DNA of 33,131 nucleotides from an uncultured Eubacteriales bacterium (GTDB lineage Bacteria > Bacillota > Clostridia > UBA1212 > CASDQQ01). Where the stretch lies: contig CASDQQ010000021.1 of NCBI GenBank assembly GCA_949282945.1, positions 1 through 33,131 of the forward strand, read 5' to 3'. Positions 1,969-25,904 of this stretch are shown piece by piece. How positions within the stretch are numbered: position 1 is the stretch's first letter; the number at the start of each line of letters is the position of its first letter. The position numbers were made by a program, and so were the translations under genes. A model generated the notes under the pieces. It was not told where the DNA came from and searched no databases. It was given only the letters and a program-made list of their open reading frames with translations.

Positions 1969-2904
1969 TCAGGCCTTTCCGTCGCATCCAAGAACATTAA
2001 CAATCTTTCTCTTGACCATATCCTTTATAGCGGCTCTTGCCGGGCTGAGATACTGTCTTGGATCAAAGTGAGAAGGATTCTCGTCAAAATACTTTCTGAT
2101 CGTAGCTGTCATAGCAAGTCTTAAGTCAGAATCTATATTGATCTTGCAAACAGCCATCTTAGCTGCTTCTCTGAGCATATCCTCAGGAATGCCTATAGCG
2201 TCTGGCATTTTTCCGCCGTGAGCGTTTATCATTTCAACAAACTCAGGTATAACTGAAGAAGCTCCGTGGAGAACTATTGGGAATCCCGGAAGTCTCTTCT
2301 CAACTTCTTTCAGAATATCAAATCTAAGCTGAGGCTTCTGGCCCGGCTTGAATTTGTAAGCGCCGTGAGAAGTACCGATAGCAATAGCGAGAGAGTCTAC
2401 TCCTGTCTTTGCGACAAACTCTTCAACCTGAGCGGGGTTAGTATAAGAAGCGTCCTCAGCGGATACGTTTACAGCGTCCTCTATACCCGCAAGTCTTCCA
2501 AGCTCACCTTCAACAACAACTCCATGTGCGTGCGCATAATCAACTACCTGCTTTGTAAGAGCAATATTATCCTCAAAAGAATGATGAGACCCATCGATCA
2601 TTACAGAAGTGAATCCGCCGTCAATACATGATTTACAAAGTTCAAAAGTATCACCGTGATCAAGGTGGAGCGCGATAGGAAGATTAGTCTCGATGATCGC
2701 TGCCTCTACCAACTTAACAAGGTAAGTATGATTAGCGTACTTTCTTGCTCCGGAAGAAACCTGAAGAATAAGTGGAGCGTTAACCTCTTTTGCCCCCTCC
2801 GTAATACCCTGGATAATTTCCATGTTATTAACGTTGAAAGCACCTATAGCATATCCGCCTTCATATGCTTTTTTAAACATTTCAGTAGTAGTTACTAATG
2901 CCAT
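1969..2904 (-). CDS. fba: Class II fructose-1,6-bisphosphate aldolase
   Basis: Cleaves fructose-1,6-bisphosphate to DHAP and glyceraldehyde-3-phosphate, a cytosolic Zn-dependent step of glycolysis. The 311-residue length is usual for the class IIB family. Visible motifs are H80-L-D-H83-G, with the catalytic Asp82 and metal-binding His83, then SVMIDGSHHSFEDN, VEGELG (about 131-136), the SHGAYKF metal/phosphate loop, VLHGASS and the C-terminal NIDSDLRLA substrate loop. The ATG is preceded by AAGGAGA. It lies 64 bases downstream of the phosphofructokinase gene in the same direction, so two consecutive glycolytic steps are encoded together, and it ends at the bidirectional terminator. Confidence 0.96.
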   Translation of the reverse strand: MALVTTTEMFKKAYEGGYAIGAFNVNNMEIIQGITEGAKEVNAPLILQVSSGARKYANHTYLVKLVEAAIIETNLPIALHLDHGDTFELCKSCIDGGFTSVMIDGSHHSFEDNIALTKQVVDYAHAHGVVVEGELGRLAGIEDAVNVSAEDASYTNPAQVEEFVAKTGVDSLAIAIGTSHGAYKFKPGQKPQLRFDILKEVEKRLPGFPIVLHGASSVIPEFVEMINAHGGKMPDAIGIPEDMLREAAKMAVCKINIDSDLRLAMTATIRKYFDENPSHFDPRQYLSPARAAIKDMVKRKIVNVLGCDGKA

Positions 2905-2968: not shown

Positions 2969-4204
2969 TTATCTCTTCTCAACAAGCACCTTTTTCAGAT
3001 TCGCAAATCTGGGAAGACCGTCCACAAGCAAAGGTCTGGTCTCTCCCTGAATCAAAGGAAGCGCATAATCTATAAATTCCTGAGTAACAAAATTTCCTTC
3101 CTCGTTTATCCACTCCCTGGGTACCTTCTTTTCAGTATTTGCAACCGAATCTAGCGGAAGGAGTTTCATATTGCATTTATATTCACTTCCAGGCGCTCTT
3201 TCAAAGCCCACCATATAATCTGTAACTCCCTCCACAGCCTTCTGGACAGCGGTCCTTCCCGCTTCATAAGACTCGTTTACGTCAGTAAGAGATCCGCAGT
3301 GAGCCGCGCACCTTTGGAGAAGAGAAAATTCTATTCCTCTTACTTTACATCCAAGCTTTTCTTTAACAATATTTGCAAGAGTTATAGCAACTCCGCCAAG
3401 CTGAGCATGTCCAAAGGAATCGCGTACGCCGCTGTCTGCCACATAACGTCCGTCGGCAAGCTTAGCACCCTCAGAAACAGCTACTATCACTTTCTTTTTC
3501 TCTTTATAAACTCTCTCCACATCAGCTAAAAACTTGTCCATGTCAAACACAAGTTCAGGGAGATAAATTAAATCTGGACCATTGCCCTTAGCCGCAGCCA
3601 AAGCAGAAGCAGCAGTAAGCCATCCGGCGTTTCTTCCCATAACCTCAAGAACGGTTACCATTCCTGTATCATATACCCTGGCGTCATGATAAACCTCCAT
3701 AAAGGAAGTAGCAATATATTTCGCCGCGCTTCCGTATCCCGGGCAGTGATCAGTCCCGAAAAGATCGTTGTCTATTGTCTTAGGCACTCCCATTACACGG
3801 CATTCATATCCGGATTTCTGCATATATTTACTTATTTTATTGCATGTATCCATGGAATCATTTCCGCCGTTATAGAAAAAATATCTGATATCATACTTTT
3901 TGAAAACTTCCAAAAGTCTCTTGTAATCCGTTTCATCATCCTCGGCATTTTTCAGCTTATAGCGGCATGAACCTAACGCGGACGACGGCGTAGTCTTCAA
4001 TAACTCCAATTCAAAGGCATCCTCTTTGCCTATATCATAAAAAACTTCATCAAGTATACCCTTTATACCGTGAGCCGCTCCATAAACAGCCGTTATATTC
4101 TCCTGCTTCAAAGCTTCCTACAAAACACCGGCGGCGCTCGCGTTTATAACAGAAGTAGGACCTCCGGACTGTCCGAATATACATGCACCTTTTAATTCGC
4201 TCAT
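2969..4204 (-). CDS. pfp: PPi-dependent 6-phosphofructokinase, reading frame interrupted by in-frame TAG at codon 29
   Basis: Phosphorylates fructose-6-phosphate, probably with pyrophosphate. GGND (full-frame residues 113-116) places Asp, and PKTIDND (141-147) places Lys, where ATP-dependent enzymes have Gly; both mark PPi-dependent enzymes. MGRNAGWLTAA and SEGAKLADG are also present. The natural start is the ATG at 4202-4204: it has GGAGG 8 bases upstream, a promoter before that, and begins MSELKGACIFGQSGGPTS, the nucleotide-binding start of the family. Codon 29 is TAG (4118-4120). From there to the TAA at 2969 the frame is intact (411 codons in all). Restart at the TTG at 4109-4111, 380 residues, would lose the GQSGGPT loop. 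TAG is a normal stop elsewhere in the window. The cause may be a true nonsense mutation, an assembly or sequencing error, or readthrough. Confidence 0.85.
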
Positions 4205-7047: not shown

Positions 7048-7614
7048 CTAATTTATTTCAACCAATATTCCTTTAAAAGCCGCCTCTACGCCTTCGTTTA
7101 TATATTCTTTGACCCAGTTTATAACTTCAAACTCCGTAATGCTAACGCCGTCAAGCTGTCTTTCAATTTCCTTTGAATTAAACTTAAAATACTCATTTCC
7201 TCCTGACAGCGTAACCTCATATTCTAAATCAGGATGAGAAAGAATAGTCCCTGTTACCGTGTCCCCTATATCTCCTAAAGGTATTCTGTCAATATTTGAT
7301 ATACCGTACCCTGCTGTAATTTCCGTACCTACCCCTTCTTTAGATTTTATGGAAAAACAACCTCCGCATATCTCTCCCGAAAGCTTAAACATAGGAATGC
7401 CAAGACCGATAGATCTTGTGGTCCGCGTAGTGGTAAAAGGACTTATAACCTTTTGTATAAAATCTTCACTCATACCGCAGCCATTGTCTGAAATAGTTAC
7501 ATAAAGCATATCCTTAGATACATCCGCCGATATAGAAAGTCCTATTTTTGTGGCTCCGGCCCTTACGGAATTCTGCATTATATCCATTACATGTAATGAA
7601 ATATCTCTCATCAT
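7048..7614 (-). CDS. Stand-alone HATPase_c (anti-sigma/histidine-kinase-like) ATP-binding protein
   Basis: A 188-residue protein that is essentially one GHKL ATPase domain. The N box has Asn15 in DIMQNSVRAGA, the G1 box is DNGCGM (43-48), the F box is SPFTTT (58-63), and the G2 box is GLGIPM (70-75). There is no dimerisation/His domain, sensor or membrane segment. Similar short ATP-binding proteins occur in Clostridia near iron hydrogenase subunits or as serine-kinase-like regulators; no such partner is visible here. The last 100 residues (from about 90) are beta-rich and I do not recognise them. ATG ATG occurs at the start, and GGAGG upstream fits either. It sits 29 bases after addA and is followed by the CotH gene at 14 bases. 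It ends in TAG. Confidence 0.8.
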   Translation of the reverse strand: MMRDISLHVMDIMQNSVRAGATKIGLSISADVSKDMLYVTISDNGCGMSEDFIQKVISPFTTTRTTRSIGLGIPMFKLSGEICGGCFSIKSKEGVGTEITAGYGISNIDRIPLGDIGDTVTGTILSHPDLEYEVTLSGGNEYFKFNSKEIERQLDGVSITEFEVINWVKEYINEGVEAAFKGILVEIN

Positions 7615-7643: not shown

Positions 7644-10600
7644 CTAAATTTGTATATTTTCTCCGGTGGAAAGAAAACATATATTTTTTTCTTTCACTTT
7701 CTTTTTGGTTTCTTCTTCCAATGCCCTGGCGTAAAGATCAAGCTGGAGACTGTATTTTTCAACGGCCTTCTTTCCTTCACCCATACCCAATTCGTCAGTC
7801 TTATAGTCTATTACTACGAGACCGTCTTCTTCTTCAAAACAACAGTCTATGATTCCCTGAACTAATATTTCCTCGTCCCTGCCACAGCGGATATCATATA
7901 GTTCCCATGCTCCGACCTTCAGAGTAAACGGTATTTCTCTTTTAGCATTTCCCGAATTTATCATCCTGCGCCCCATATCGCTTTTAAAAAAATCCATTAT
8001 CGGCCTTACATTAAAATTTTCGCACTCAGCCTCCGTAAGTCCCTGTTTTCTGCAAAGGGACCTTATGCTATCCTCACTTATTTCTTTAAAATCTATATGC
8101 TGCATTATATAATGAGTTATTGTTCCCATCTCTGCCGCGTCCCTTTTTCCTTCTCTGTCCAAAAACGCGGGGTTTTTCACCAGTCTGGGTATTTCATCTG
8201 CGGCTTTAATCTGAGACACGCTTACCTTTACCGGCATTTTCGCCGCTTCTGCATAGGGATATTTATAGTCAAGCCTTCTGCAAAGCTCCCGATAAATTTC
8301 ATTTTCTTCCGTAACCGTTTTAGAACTTATATCTTCGACTTCCTGTTCCGGTAAAAAATTTTTTGTTTCTTCTTGCCCAACTGTCAAAAACAACTGGTTT
8401 ATTTCTTTATATATAAATTTAAAATCGCAGCTTTCTTCCTCACCCGGATATATGATGTCCTCTTCCGCCCATTCTATATCCGCCATATCCCTAAGTCCTG
8501 CCATACCTGGATGTCTTATCAGGACAGGTATTAAAAAATCACAAAAAGATCTGGCGCTCAATGCGTAAAACGACGGTATTTTTTTCGATCCGGGAGAAAT
8601 CACTCCCCAATATTTTTTCAGAGTTTTTTGTGCTCCTGATATAATGCCCGATAAAATAATTTTTTCTTTCGCCCTTGTCATCGCCACGTACAAAAGGCGC
8701 ATTTCTTCGGCTATCATTTCTTCATTTATTTTTAATTTTATTACGTTCTTGGTTACTGTATCCCATTTTGCTCTAAGTTCCGTATCAAAAGCATCCGCTC
8801 CGAATCCAAGATCCTGATGCATTATTATGCTGTCCGACAAATCTCTCCTATTAAATCCTTTATCAATATTGGCAAGAAATACTATAGGGAATTCAAGGCC
8901 TTTACTTTTATGTATGCTCATTATTCTTACAACATCGTCATTTTCTCCCAAAACCGCGGCGCTCCCCATATCTCCGCTGCTTTCTTTTATTTTATCTGTA
9001 TAATATAAAAACTCAAATACTCCGCACCCTGTTTCTCTTTCATAATTGACAGCCTCATCATAAAGCTTTCTAAGGTTTGCCTGTCTTTCATTTCCGTCCT
9101 CAAAAACTCCTGAATAATCAAAGCAATCTGTATCCCTGTATAACTTTAATATAAGTTCTGAAAGCTTCATATCCGCAGCTGCATCTCTGAGGCCGTTTAA
9201 TTTATCCAAAAATACGGAGGCTTTTTGCGAAAGCTCAGAATTTCCAGAACACGCCAAATCCCTCAGATTTTTATATACACTCTCTTCTCTTCCCTGACAG
9301 CGCAGATCCGCTATATCGTTTTCATCAAATCCGCCTGCCGGGGATTTCAAAACAGCAGTAAGCGGTATGTCCTGTATGGGATTATCTATTATCTGAAGAA
9401 AAGAAATTATGAGCTTGATTTCTTTAGACTGGTAAAAACCTGTATTTACATCGCAGTAAGCGGGTATCCTGAACTGTGAAAGTATCTCTTTATATACATC
9501 GGCTCTGTCTTTGGTAGCCCTCAGTAATATCACAATATCTTTATATTTTATTTTTGGGTTTTCCCCGATAAGTTCTTTTATCCTGGCAGCAATCATCGCA
9601 GCCTCAAATTCCGTTTTTTTTCTGTCGGAAAGTTCGCCGTCTCTCTCCTTAATATCTGAAAGCATAAGCTCGCATGACACATCCCAGTCCGCGTTTTCAT
9701 AATCGGCTCCATAATAAAGATACTCTTCAGTTCCATAGCCCATTCCACAGATTTCCTTTGTCATTACTGCTGAGAAAATATAGTTTACCCCTCCTATTAC
9801 ATCCCTTCTGCTCCTAAAATTTTTATATAGTTTTATAAGCCTTTCTCCTTTTTTTAAATAATCTTCTGTTGAAAAGCTCTCATATTTTTTCATAAAAATA
9901 TCCGGCCTTGCCTGTCTGAATCCGTATATACTCTGTTTTACATCTCCCACCATAAAAAGATTGGGAACGTCAGGCTTTTTCCTTGATATCAAAGACAGTA
10001 TTGTTTCCTGAGTTAAATTAGTATCCTGATATTCGTCGGTATAGACCTCTTCATAATAGCTTTTGAAACCGTCCGCTATATCGGGATTTTCCGTAAGTAT
10101 CCTTAAAGCAAAATGTTCCAGATCATTATAATCGGCGTATTTTTTTCTTTCCTTTCTTTCTCGGTATTCTTTTGAAAAGGCTAAAACCAACGCTCCCACC
10201 GTTTGCAGCGGCTTACGTATATTTTCCAGATCGCTTCGGTTTCCGGCGCTGTCCTTAGCAAAAAGGACATCTCCATACTCTTTTAAAGTGTCCTTTATGT
10301 TTTCCGCTATATTCGACACTGAATCCAAAATTTTTTCATCGCATCCTTTTGTTTTGGGCGGAAATCTTTTTATCTCAAAATTTCTCAATTCATCATATAC
10401 ATTATCCCATGTATATCCATTTTCGATATTGGTCATAAGAATTTCAAAAAATCCCTTATATCTTCTGAAATTTCCCACATATGAATCCGCCCCGCCTCTT
10501 TCGCAAAGCTCTATGGCATACTCACATGCCTGTATCAATTGCGGCAGTTCTTTCTTTAGCTTTGAAAAAATAAAGTCTCCCCAGACGGTGGACCTGAAAT

Positions 10601-11252
10601 CTTCGGCTTCATCCATTGGCTGTTCAGAATAAAATCTGCGTATATTTTCCTCAAGCCATTTTCCGGGAAAAGGACAGCTGTTTATATACTCATATATATT
10701 AAGTATGAGTTTTTTCAGGCCCTCGTCATTTCTTGAACCTCCGTAAATATCCACGGCCATTTCAAAATTTTCCCTGTCCTCTTCAGACTCATACATAATA
10801 TCCATAATATGGTCCAGTGACTCCGCTTTCATTATATCCGCTTCTATCGCGTCTATTATTTTAAAATTAGGATCTATATTTATTTTATTAAAATTTGTTC
10901 TTATTACTTTGGCACAAAAGGAATGCATCGTTGTTATAGTAGCACGGTTCAAAAGAGTAAGCTGTCTTTTTAATCTATTTTTAAAGTCGCGTCCATCCTT
11001 TTCCGTTATATTCGCTATTCTTTCTGAAACGGCTCTTTCAATACGCTCTCTCATTTCTGAAGCGGCGGCTTCTGTAAATGTAACGATTATAAGTCTGTCT
11101 ATATCCACTCCCTCATTTGGATCAAGTATCCTTTGTATGATCCTCTCCACAAGAACAGCGGTTTTTCCGGAACCGGCTGCCGCCGCTACCAAAAGGCTGC
11201 AGTTTCTTGAAGATATGGCACTTTTTTGCTCTTCCGTCCATTTTACCGCCAT
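7644..11252 (-). CDS. addA: ATP-dependent helicase/nuclease subunit A
   Basis: Motor and nuclease subunit of the AddAB (RexAB) recombination complex, which processes double-strand DNA ends for RecA. The 1202-residue length is near the usual size. UvrD/SF1 motifs are in order: Walker A AAGSGKT (25-31), VTFTEAAASEM, TTMHSFCAKVIR, YTDEYQDTN (Walker B), VGDVKQSIYGFRQA, MSIHKSKGLEFPIVF and LLYVAMTRAKEK. The C-terminal RecB-type nuclease has GTITHYIMQHID, then GIIDCCF, VVIDYKTDEL and QLDLYARAL. The ATG has AGAGGG upstream and its own promoter. The usual addB gene does not precede it: the upstream gene is a divergent amidase. TAG is the stop codon. Confidence 0.95.
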   Translation of the reverse strand: MAVKWTEEQKSAISSRNCSLLVAAAAGSGKTAVLVERIIQRILDPNEGVDIDRLIIVTFTEAAASEMRERIERAVSERIANITEKDGRDFKNRLKRQLTLLNRATITTMHSFCAKVIRTNFNKINIDPNFKIIDAIEADIMKAESLDHIMDIMYESEEDRENFEMAVDIYGGSRNDEGLKKLILNIYEYINSCPFPGKWLEENIRRFYSEQPMDEAEDFRSTVWGDFIFSKLKKELPQLIQACEYAIELCERGGADSYVGNFRRYKGFFEILMTNIENGYTWDNVYDELRNFEIKRFPPKTKGCDEKILDSVSNIAENIKDTLKEYGDVLFAKDSAGNRSDLENIRKPLQTVGALVLAFSKEYRERKERKKYADYNDLEHFALRILTENPDIADGFKSYYEEVYTDEYQDTNLTQETILSLISRKKPDVPNLFMVGDVKQSIYGFRQARPDIFMKKYESFSTEDYLKKGERLIKLYKNFRSRRDVIGGVNYIFSAVMTKEICGMGYGTEEYLYYGADYENADWDVSCELMLSDIKERDGELSDRKKTEFEAAMIAARIKELIGENPKIKYKDIVILLRATKDRADVYKEILSQFRIPAYCDVNTGFYQSKEIKLIISFLQIIDNPIQDIPLTAVLKSPAGGFDENDIADLRCQGREESVYKNLRDLACSGNSELSQKASVFLDKLNGLRDAAADMKLSELILKLYRDTDCFDYSGVFEDGNERQANLRKLYDEAVNYERETGCGVFEFLYYTDKIKESSGDMGSAAVLGENDDVVRIMSIHKSKGLEFPIVFLANIDKGFNRRDLSDSIIMHQDLGFGADAFDTELRAKWDTVTKNVIKLKINEEMIAEEMRLLYVAMTRAKEKIILSGIISGAQKTLKKYWGVISPGSKKIPSFYALSARSFCDFLIPVLIRHPGMAGLRDMADIEWAEEDIIYPGEEESCDFKFIYKEINQLFLTVGQEETKNFLPEQEVEDISSKTVTEENEIYRELCRRLDYKYPYAEAAKMPVKVSVSQIKAADEIPRLVKNPAFLDREGKRDAAEMGTITHYIMQHIDFKEISEDSIRSLCRKQGLTEAECENFNVRPIMDFFKSDMGRRMINSGNAKREIPFTLKVGAWELYDIRCGRDEEILVQGIIDCCFEEEDGLVVIDYKTDELGMGEGKKAVEKYSLQLDLYARALEEETKKKVKEKNICFLSTGENIQI

Positions 11253-22550: not shown

Positions 22551-24131
22551 CTAATCCATTATTGAAATTATAGCTTTGGGAAGCGATTCTATTATATCTC
22601 CCGCGATCATCCCATACTCTCCGTATTTTTCAGCCGCAATATCTCCCGCAAGTCCGTGAAGGTAAGCTCCGCAGGGAGCCGCTAATTCAAAATTTCCATT
22701 TGCTGCCATAGACGCAATGATTCCGCAGAGCACATCGCCAGATCCGCCGGTAGACATACCCGGATTTCCCGTGGGATTGATATAAACAAATCCATCAGGT
22801 AAAGCCGTAACCGTCGCAGCTCCCTTTAAAACCACAGTTTTTTCAAATTCTTTTGAGAAATATCTGGCACAGCTTATCCTGTCCGACTGCACCTCCCTCA
22901 CCGAGGTACCACAAAGTCTGGCCATCTCGCCCGGATGAGGAGTCAAGATCGTCGGAATATTTACTTCCCTTAATATTTCTGTATTTCTTGATACAATATT
23001 TAACGCGTCTGCGTCCAATACTAAAATTTTCTTAAAAGCGTCCTTTATATTACCTATCTCCGTTAAAAAATCATAAAGGAAATCTTCTGTTTCCTCATTA
23101 GTACCCATTCCAGGTCCAACTACTATTACATCAAGCTTTTGACAAAACTCTAAAATATTTTTAACACATCCCGCCGAAAGCCAAAGATTTTCACATTTTA
23201 CCGGAACAGTCACCGTTTCCAAGGAAGTGTATTCGTATATATCTGAAATCCCTTCAGGAACTATATTATATACTAATCCGGCGCCAGTCCTCAGCGCGGC
23301 TCTTGACGCCATGATCCCGGCCCCGGTCATTCCCTCGCATCCGCCTATTATACCTATCCTTCCGTAAGTACCTTTGTTTGTGTCAGATTTTCTTTTAGGA
23401 AAAAAATCTTTCACAAGGCTTTTTTCTGTTTCAAAAATTTTTATTTTCATATCCTGTATAAGTTTTTCCGGAACTCCTATATCCGCCATAATTATCTCTC
23501 CGCAGAAATCTTTTCCCGGATACATTATATTTCCGGCTTTCAGTATCGCCATAACAACAGTCATATCCGCGTTTACAGCCGTACCCATTATTCTTCCGTT
23601 TTCTCCGTTTATTCCGGAAGGTATATCCGCCGAAATCTTAACCGCGTTCTTACATCTGTTTATACATGTTATGATTTTTTCATATATACCGCTTATTTCC
23701 GAATTAAGACCTGTTCCTAAAATGGCGTCTATTATAATGTCCGAAGTTGAAAGAATTTCTGATATCCGATCGATATTCTCATTTGAAATACTTGTAAGCT
23801 CCGCTCCCATGTTTTTAAGTATGCTATAGTTTTCATAAGCAGAAGCCCCTTTTATTCCGCTTTCTTCCCCACATATAAAAATATTGGTCTTTATGCCGCC
23901 GTTAATAAAATATCTGGCGGCCACAAAACCGTCTCCGCCGTTGTTCCCCCTGCCGCACACCACAGAAACCGTTAATTTTTCAGTATATATGCCTCTTTTT
24001 TCAATATATTTTAAAGTTTCTGAATACAGGCTCCTTCCGGCATTTTCCATAAGCCTTATCTCAGGTATGCCATACTCCAAAGCACACCTTCTGTCCATTT
24101 CTTTTATTTGATCTGGAAAAGCAATTTTCAT
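22551..24131 (-). CDS. nnr: Bifunctional NAD(P)H-hydrate epimerase/dehydratase
   Basis: Repairs hydrated NADH and NADPH: the N-terminal YjeF_N domain epimerises the hydrates and the C-terminal ribokinase-like domain dehydrates the S form using ADP (or ATP). The 526-residue length is that of the usual fusion. YjeF_N marks are ENAGRSLY, GRGNNGGDGFVAARYF, ILGTGLNSEISG and SADIPSGINGE (residues 1 to about 215). The dehydratase shows GTYGRIGIIGGCEGMTGA, VVGPGMGTNEE, DADALN, LTPHPGEMARLCG and NPTGNPGMSTGGSGDVLCG, whose GSGD Asp is catalytic. It sits 4 bases after ispD and 9 bases before alr; nnr followed by alr is frequent in Firmicutes. TAG is the stop. Confidence 0.95.
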   Translation of the reverse strand: MKIAFPDQIKEMDRRCALEYGIPEIRLMENAGRSLYSETLKYIEKRGIYTEKLTVSVVCGRGNNGGDGFVAARYFINGGIKTNIFICGEESGIKGASAYENYSILKNMGAELTSISNENIDRISEILSTSDIIIDAILGTGLNSEISGIYEKIITCINRCKNAVKISADIPSGINGENGRIMGTAVNADMTVVMAILKAGNIMYPGKDFCGEIIMADIGVPEKLIQDMKIKIFETEKSLVKDFFPKRKSDTNKGTYGRIGIIGGCEGMTGAGIMASRAALRTGAGLVYNIVPEGISDIYEYTSLETVTVPVKCENLWLSAGCVKNILEFCQKLDVIVVGPGMGTNEETEDFLYDFLTEIGNIKDAFKKILVLDADALNIVSRNTEILREVNIPTILTPHPGEMARLCGTSVREVQSDRISCARYFSKEFEKTVVLKGAATVTALPDGFVYINPTGNPGMSTGGSGDVLCGIIASMAANGNFELAAPCGAYLHGLAGDIAAEKYGEYGMIAGDIIESLPKAIISIMD

Positions 24132-24845: not shown

Positions 24846-25904
24846 CTACTCAGCAAGATTTGCAAATATCATTCTTCCGGCCTGCGTCTGTATAACACTT
24901 GTAACGATCGCAGTGACCTCTTCTCCCACTCTGCTTCTGGTATTTTCCACAACCACCATAGTTCCGCTTTCAAGATATCCTATTCCCTGCTGCCTTTCCT
25001 TTCCCTGCTTTATTATATTTACCTTTATCTCGTCTCCCACATTAGCAAGAGGCTTGAGCGCGTTTGCCAACTCGTTTATGTTCAGCACCTTTATATTTTT
25101 CAGCTTGGCTATTTTGTTAAGATTAAAATCATTTGTAACTATAGTCAGATTATTCTCATAAGCCGCTTCTATTAAAAGTTCGTCAACTCCCTTTGCCATA
25201 TTTACATTATAGTTTTTTATATATATCCTGTCTCCGAATTCTTTTTGCATATTATTGAGCATATCAAGACCCTTGCGACCTTTGCCCCTCTTGACCGAGT
25301 CCTGCGAGTCCGCCAAAGTCCCAAGTTCATCTATTACAAACTGTGGAATGATAAGTTTACCTTCCAAAAATCCGGTAATAAGTATGTCAAATATTCTTCC
25401 ATCTATTACTGTACTTGTATCCAAAAGCTTTGCATTGCTTTTTTCTCTTGTTTCGTCTTCATATCTTTGTCTCAGTTTTGTGAAAAGCCTGTCGTTTTTA
25501 AATCTCAGCGTAAGACAAAAACCTAAATATGCGAATATTATATTGAATATCAGCGTGAGTGGTATTCCTATAAATTTTATACTGAGTATCGGTATACAAA
25601 TCAAATTAGCTATAACAAGACCTATTATAAATCCTGAACATCCCAAAATAAATTCATATGATGAATAATGCCTGTCCTTTAACGCCGCTTCAATTTTGTC
25701 CACTATCTTAGAAAAATTATCTATAATAAGCGCCGATATTATATAAAAAATAAAAAAGAATAAAATACAGATTGCAATAGAGGCAATAACGTCCATACTA
25801 ACGTCATTTCTGATTATGCCTTGCGGGAATAGCTCTTTTATGGCCACAAAGGCTGACGCCGCTCCTATAGCTCCAAACACTGCTTTGGAAATTCTTTTAA
25901 TCAA
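24846..25904 (-). CDS. PIN/TRAM-domain membrane protein (YacL family)
   Basis: A 352-residue protein with four N-terminal membrane helices (about 8-24, 38-62, 84-107 and 112-134), a PIN nuclease-like domain (about 159-270) and a C-terminal TRAM domain (about 290-350) that probably binds RNA. PIN acidic residues are in place: D162 and D168 in LLDTSTVIDGRIFD, E193 in VIDELGTLAD, D241 in GVDELLIEAA and D259 in IVTNDFN. The family is a membrane-bound probable RNase of unsettled role. It is conserved next to carD and ispD in Firmicutes, as here; carD ends 4 bases upstream. TAG is the stop codon. Confidence 0.92.
   Translation of the reverse strand: MIKRISKAVFGAIGAASAFVAIKELFPQGIIRNDVSMDVIASIAICILFFFIFYIISALIIDNFSKIVDKIEAALKDRHYSSYEFILGCSGFIIGLVIANLICIPILSIKFIGIPLTLIFNIIFAYLGFCLTLRFKNDRLFTKLRQRYEDETREKSNAKLLDTSTVIDGRIFDILITGFLEGKLIIPQFVIDELGTLADSQDSVKRGKGRKGLDMLNNMQKEFGDRIYIKNYNVNMAKGVDELLIEAAYENNLTIVTNDFNLNKIAKLKNIKVLNINELANALKPLANVGDEIKVNIIKQGKERQQGIGYLESGTMVVVENTRSRVGEEVTAIVTSVIQTQAGRMIFANLAE

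Follow-up and report, generated by a model that had tools for sequence, protein, structure and literature searches.

The stretch of DNA analysed here, 33,131 nucleotides long and referred to as the window, corresponds to contig 21 of an assembly that comprises 153 contigs totalling 1.92 Mb and is 84% complete. A gene for a PPi-phosphofructokinase (pfp) runs on its minus strand from position 4204 to position 2969, and its reading frame is open throughout except for a TAG at codon 29. The features of the locus, all on the minus strand, are as follows.

2969..4204, minus strand: pfp, diphosphate--fructose-6-phosphate 1-phosphotransferase, 412 codons including the stop, 410-residue type, with one internal TAG
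4154..4174, minus strand: GQSGGPT phosphate-binding loop, residues 11-17, located 5' of the TAG (position computed from 4204)
4121..4123, minus strand: TTG, codon 28, encoding Leu; of 84 homologues with a residue at this position, 82 have Ile or Phe
4118..4120, minus strand: TAG, codon 29 (the plus strand reads CTA); a sense codon in all homologues examined, most commonly CAG
4109..4111, minus strand: TTG, codon 32, the earliest possible restart past the TAG (ORF 2969-4111, 380 residues, TTG start)
1969..2904, minus strand: class II fructose-bisphosphate aldolase (fba), intact (PF01116, E 1.2e-103), downstream neighbour and pathway partner of pfp

An interrupted gene of the PRK14072 type

The gene consists of a ribosome site, an ATG, 28 codons, the TAG, 382 sense codons and a terminal TAA. 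The original prediction, which described an in-frame TAG in an otherwise intact pfp, is borne out in that GGAGG, the ATG and MSELKGACIFGQSGGPTSVINASAAGVL all lie upstream of the TAG in the same frame; it was likewise right that a restart at the following TTG, separated from the TAG by two codons, drops the GQSGGPT loop. Since the frame aligns on both sides of the TAG with homologues from the order and the class (66-80% identity over residues 1-411, with codon 29 entered as X), the interrupted frame is not a product of chance.

Scored against the NCBIfam subfamily profile PRK14072.1 (cut-off 273 bits), the part following the TAG reaches 536 bits and the read-through form 586 bits, so that the product belongs by the curated cut-off to the PRK14072-type PPi-phosphofructokinases, even though the uninterrupted reading frame expected of that type is broken at codon 29. 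The nearest solved structures are PPi-phosphofructokinases (PDB 3k2q and 3hno), and the translation contains both PPi-type determinants, that is, the Asp of GGNDS and the Lys of PKTIDND. We take the latter, at the position of E. coli residue 124, to be a determinant for PPi rather than ATP. Asp at the position of E. coli residue 104 is a documented determinant of the same preference (PMC10339645). In 58 of 109 loci, relatives of fba lie close to pfp.

Codon 29 in relatives and the meaning of TAG

The comparison of codon 29 in relatives that had been proposed could be made with relatives from the order and the class, none being from the same genus or family. Sense codons are present at this position in all of ~105 homologue loci (CAG 27, CGC 16, ATC 10, CAA 8, and others), and the sequences nearest to the window usually have Ile or Phe at codon 28 followed by Gln at codon 29. 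A single C-to-T step converts CAG into TAG, and the ancestral codon was presumably CAG, judging from these relatives. At least eight different residues are accommodated at position 29 across the homologues and, given this variability, any residue inserted there would probably be harmless. Two unusual bases thus stand next to each other, one giving Leu at codon 28, where nearly all homologues have Ile or Phe, and one giving the adjoining TAG; the former could stem from another error at this spot or from a double change that is real.

The remainder of the gene exhibits no sign of decay. In the alignment of 85 homologues, pfp matches every one of the 143 columns in which at most two sequences deviate, while 24 other homologues depart at 1-9 of them; left out of this count was one sequence (L007), for which an N-terminus lost in extraction had given 109 apparent deviations. 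The relaxed constraint that marks a pseudogene is hence not seen, although a very recent pseudogene would look alike, and the lack of decay across the 143 columns indicates that the stop is either very recent or absent from the organism. The nearest relatives found in public genomes are ~80% identical and come from metagenome assemblies. A stop reported in another locus of the order (L010, genome G030) falls outside the aligned protein and was discarded.

UAG is read as a stop in this genome. TAG terminates 123 of 816 long coding ORFs and, as had been stated for at least four neighbouring genes, the window genes at 7048-7614, 7644-11252, 22551-24131 and 24846-25904, and release factor 1 (RF1) is intact on contig 58 (541 bits versus a cut-off of 423). 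Neither mark of TAG reassignment, loss of RF1 or disuse of TAG as a stop, is therefore present. The suggested search for pyrrolysine genes came out negative: no PylRS, on which pyrrolysine decoding depends, matched above the TIGR02367 cut-off, and the weak matches obtained resemble those in most control genomes. As for an amber suppressor tRNA, which had also been proposed as a target, no CUA anticodon occurs among the 28 tRNAs found, a set from which many expected tRNAs are missing, so that a suppressor may lie among those; tRNA-Gln(CUG) is normal.

Long in-frame stretches come after genes ending in TAG two to three times more frequently than after those ending in TAA or TGA (window and loci L141-L260). 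Readthrough was considered as the source of this excess of coding-like sequence and rejected: in nearly all of the long-frame cases, as judged by eye, the following gene begins in frame, often with its ribosome site overlapped by the TAG, an arrangement that apparently generates the in-frame stretches.

Internal stops were sought in about two thirds of the genome (~1.3 Mb, of which 47.7 kb were masked, leaving ~1.26 Mb readable) with a hexamer scan that recovers the pfp TAG, has 81% sensitivity at random positions in long ORFs, and was followed by inspection of the matches. A codon-usage scan proved too strict, yielding zero matches and missing even the known pfp site. Apart from pfp, one interrupted gene was found, and the stop is again TAG:

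Contig 12, G000:C12:3215-3217 (L152), plus strand: in-frame TAG in a phosphomannose-isomerase-like ORF; the closest relatives have Tyr or Phe; adjoins a ROK-like kinase gene

The name of this ORF derives from 27-37% similarity, below every Pfam cut-off. An intact isomerase, its paralogue, is encoded on contig 140. Interrupted genes are rare here: two in ~1.26 Mb correspond, by our rough estimate, to ~5 wrong bases per 100,000, a rate that we judge ordinary for a draft metagenome assembly. That both stops are amber lends weak support to suppression, an outcome of about 1 in 9 if the three stops were equally likely.

Phosphofructokinases of the order and the origin of the stop

The search for a second pfk or pfp gene, likewise proposed at the outset, revealed an intact ATP-dependent PfkA equivalog on contig 2 (G000:C2:25680-26498). 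Within the order, 29 of 30 genomes encode one PPi-type enzyme each, 21 being of the 410-residue type (some seen as fragments only) and 8 of a ~550-residue type that was called PPi-type from its length; the genome with neither is 69% complete. The two types never occur together in one genome (G001-G030), which looks like a swap of PPi-phosphofructokinase types within a single order. In one 97%-complete relative, the 410-residue enzyme is present only as residues 1-125, in an open frame of 161 (G009:C11:5206-5580), representing either a contig end or an interrupted gene.

Transaldolase is absent from 29 of the 30 genomes of the order, and neither transaldolase nor glucose-6-phosphate dehydrogenase (G6PD) was found in the 84% complete assembly of the organism itself. 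In cellulolytic clostridia, PPi-phosphofructokinase and aldolase stand in for transaldolase (PMC7029132), and it has been argued that an ATP-dependent enzyme cannot simply replace Pfp, being unable to dephosphorylate sedoheptulose bisphosphate (PMC10339645). The expectation that glycolysis would rest on another gene is partly sustained: the intact PfkA could carry glycolysis, but a loss would weigh more heavily on the pentose phosphate link. Since PPi-phosphofructokinase is kept across the order while transaldolase is missing from nearly all of its genomes, a fixed pfp null is unlikely, and a settled null here would not fit the pattern of the order.

The same two observations favour an error or a transient variant over a settled loss. 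Hence, of the three options that the original prediction had soundly named but left unranked (fresh loss, readthrough or suppression, and base error), we prefer the last, widened to include a transient variant; the others are less supported. The TAG is probably a wrong consensus base or a transient or minor-strain nonsense variant and not a new kind of decoding; we consider it most likely that the base at codon 29 is either erroneous or transient, and not fixed. According to this scenario, pfp would have been under full constraint until a single C-to-T nonsense change arose at a site that is mostly CAG in relatives, its source being either an erroneous base in the draft metagenome consensus or a short-lived or minority-strain variant; the living population would then mostly make a normal PPi-phosphofructokinase. 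In-frame stops in bacteria do persist mostly on the scale of population polymorphism only (PMC7918605). Counting against an error or a transient variant are the unusual codon 28, the intact PfkA and the 84% completeness of the assembly.

Ranked second, and in our view possible if unlikely, is a real and recently fixed loss of PPi-phosphofructokinase, in which the 28-residue product is dead and PfkA carries glycolysis; as part of such a loss, the pentose phosphate link would run poorly via PfkA or via a gene missing from the assembly. Consistent with a loss are (i) the intact PfkA equivalog, (ii) the presence of pyruvate kinase together with the failure to find a PPDK above its cut-off or a membrane pyrophosphatase in this genome, so that no commitment to PPi-based glycolysis is apparent, and (iii) the intact paralogue of the second amber-interrupted gene. 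However, a loss has to be reconciled with the zero decay of the remaining pfp, with the retention of the enzyme by the order relatives, nearly all of which lack transaldolase, and with the finding of neither transaldolase nor G6PD in the genome itself.

It appears rather improbable that the TAG is real and that leaky reading of UAG or a natural amber suppressor tRNA supplies enough full-length enzyme at lowered pfp dosage. Almost any insertion would serve at a codon that accepts so many residues, the sole other internal stop found is TAG as well, and in-frame stops with retained purifying selection have been reported for bacteria (PMC7918605). Yet RF1 is intact, the PylRS search and the incomplete tRNA set described above revealed no decoder, internal TAGs number just two in the part of the genome scanned, and the coding-like stretches past other TAGs are nearly all explained by the next gene in frame. 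Quite remote is the specific variant in which a natural amber suppressor encoded on an unassembled contig allows TAG to be tolerated in both pfp and the phosphomannose-isomerase-like gene, with low pfp dosage and an unchanged code. Programmed recoding, either by a hop from the TTG of codon 28 to the TTG of codon 32 or by restart at the latter, is scarcely credible: the repeated TTG and an AGGA just upstream of the second one are short features expected by chance, neither layout occurs in any homologue, a restart would remove the phosphate-binding loop that homologues keep, and ribosomal bypass was rejected because the hop deletes four residues right after the conserved N-terminal segment.

If the TAG were fixed, the organism would be devoid of both transaldolase and PPi-phosphofructokinase, and the link known to join pentose and hexose phosphates in these clostridia would go unexplained. 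More probably, the case is a caution against taking a single-base nonsense codon in a draft metagenome assembly for gene loss when read support is lacking.

Comparison with known systems

With published bacterial in-frame stops under constraint, pfp shares a CAG/TAG difference within a gene that is otherwise constrained, as in that work's own TAG/CAG example; unlike them, the pfp TAG is confined to one genome with no orthologous stop and would fail their artefact filter. Amber suppression and pyrrolysine decoding share with pfp an in-frame TAG within a conserved gene, and differ from it in that here RF1 is intact, neither PylRS nor a CUA tRNA was found, and the TAG is not conserved at its site. 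The closest likeness is to the PRK14072-type PPi-phosphofructokinases themselves (C. thermocellum Pfp, Clo1313_1876 / Cthe_0347; 3k2q, 3hno), with which the window gene shares full-length homology, the PPi-type residues and the adjoining class II aldolase, and from which it is set apart by the one TAG at codon 29.
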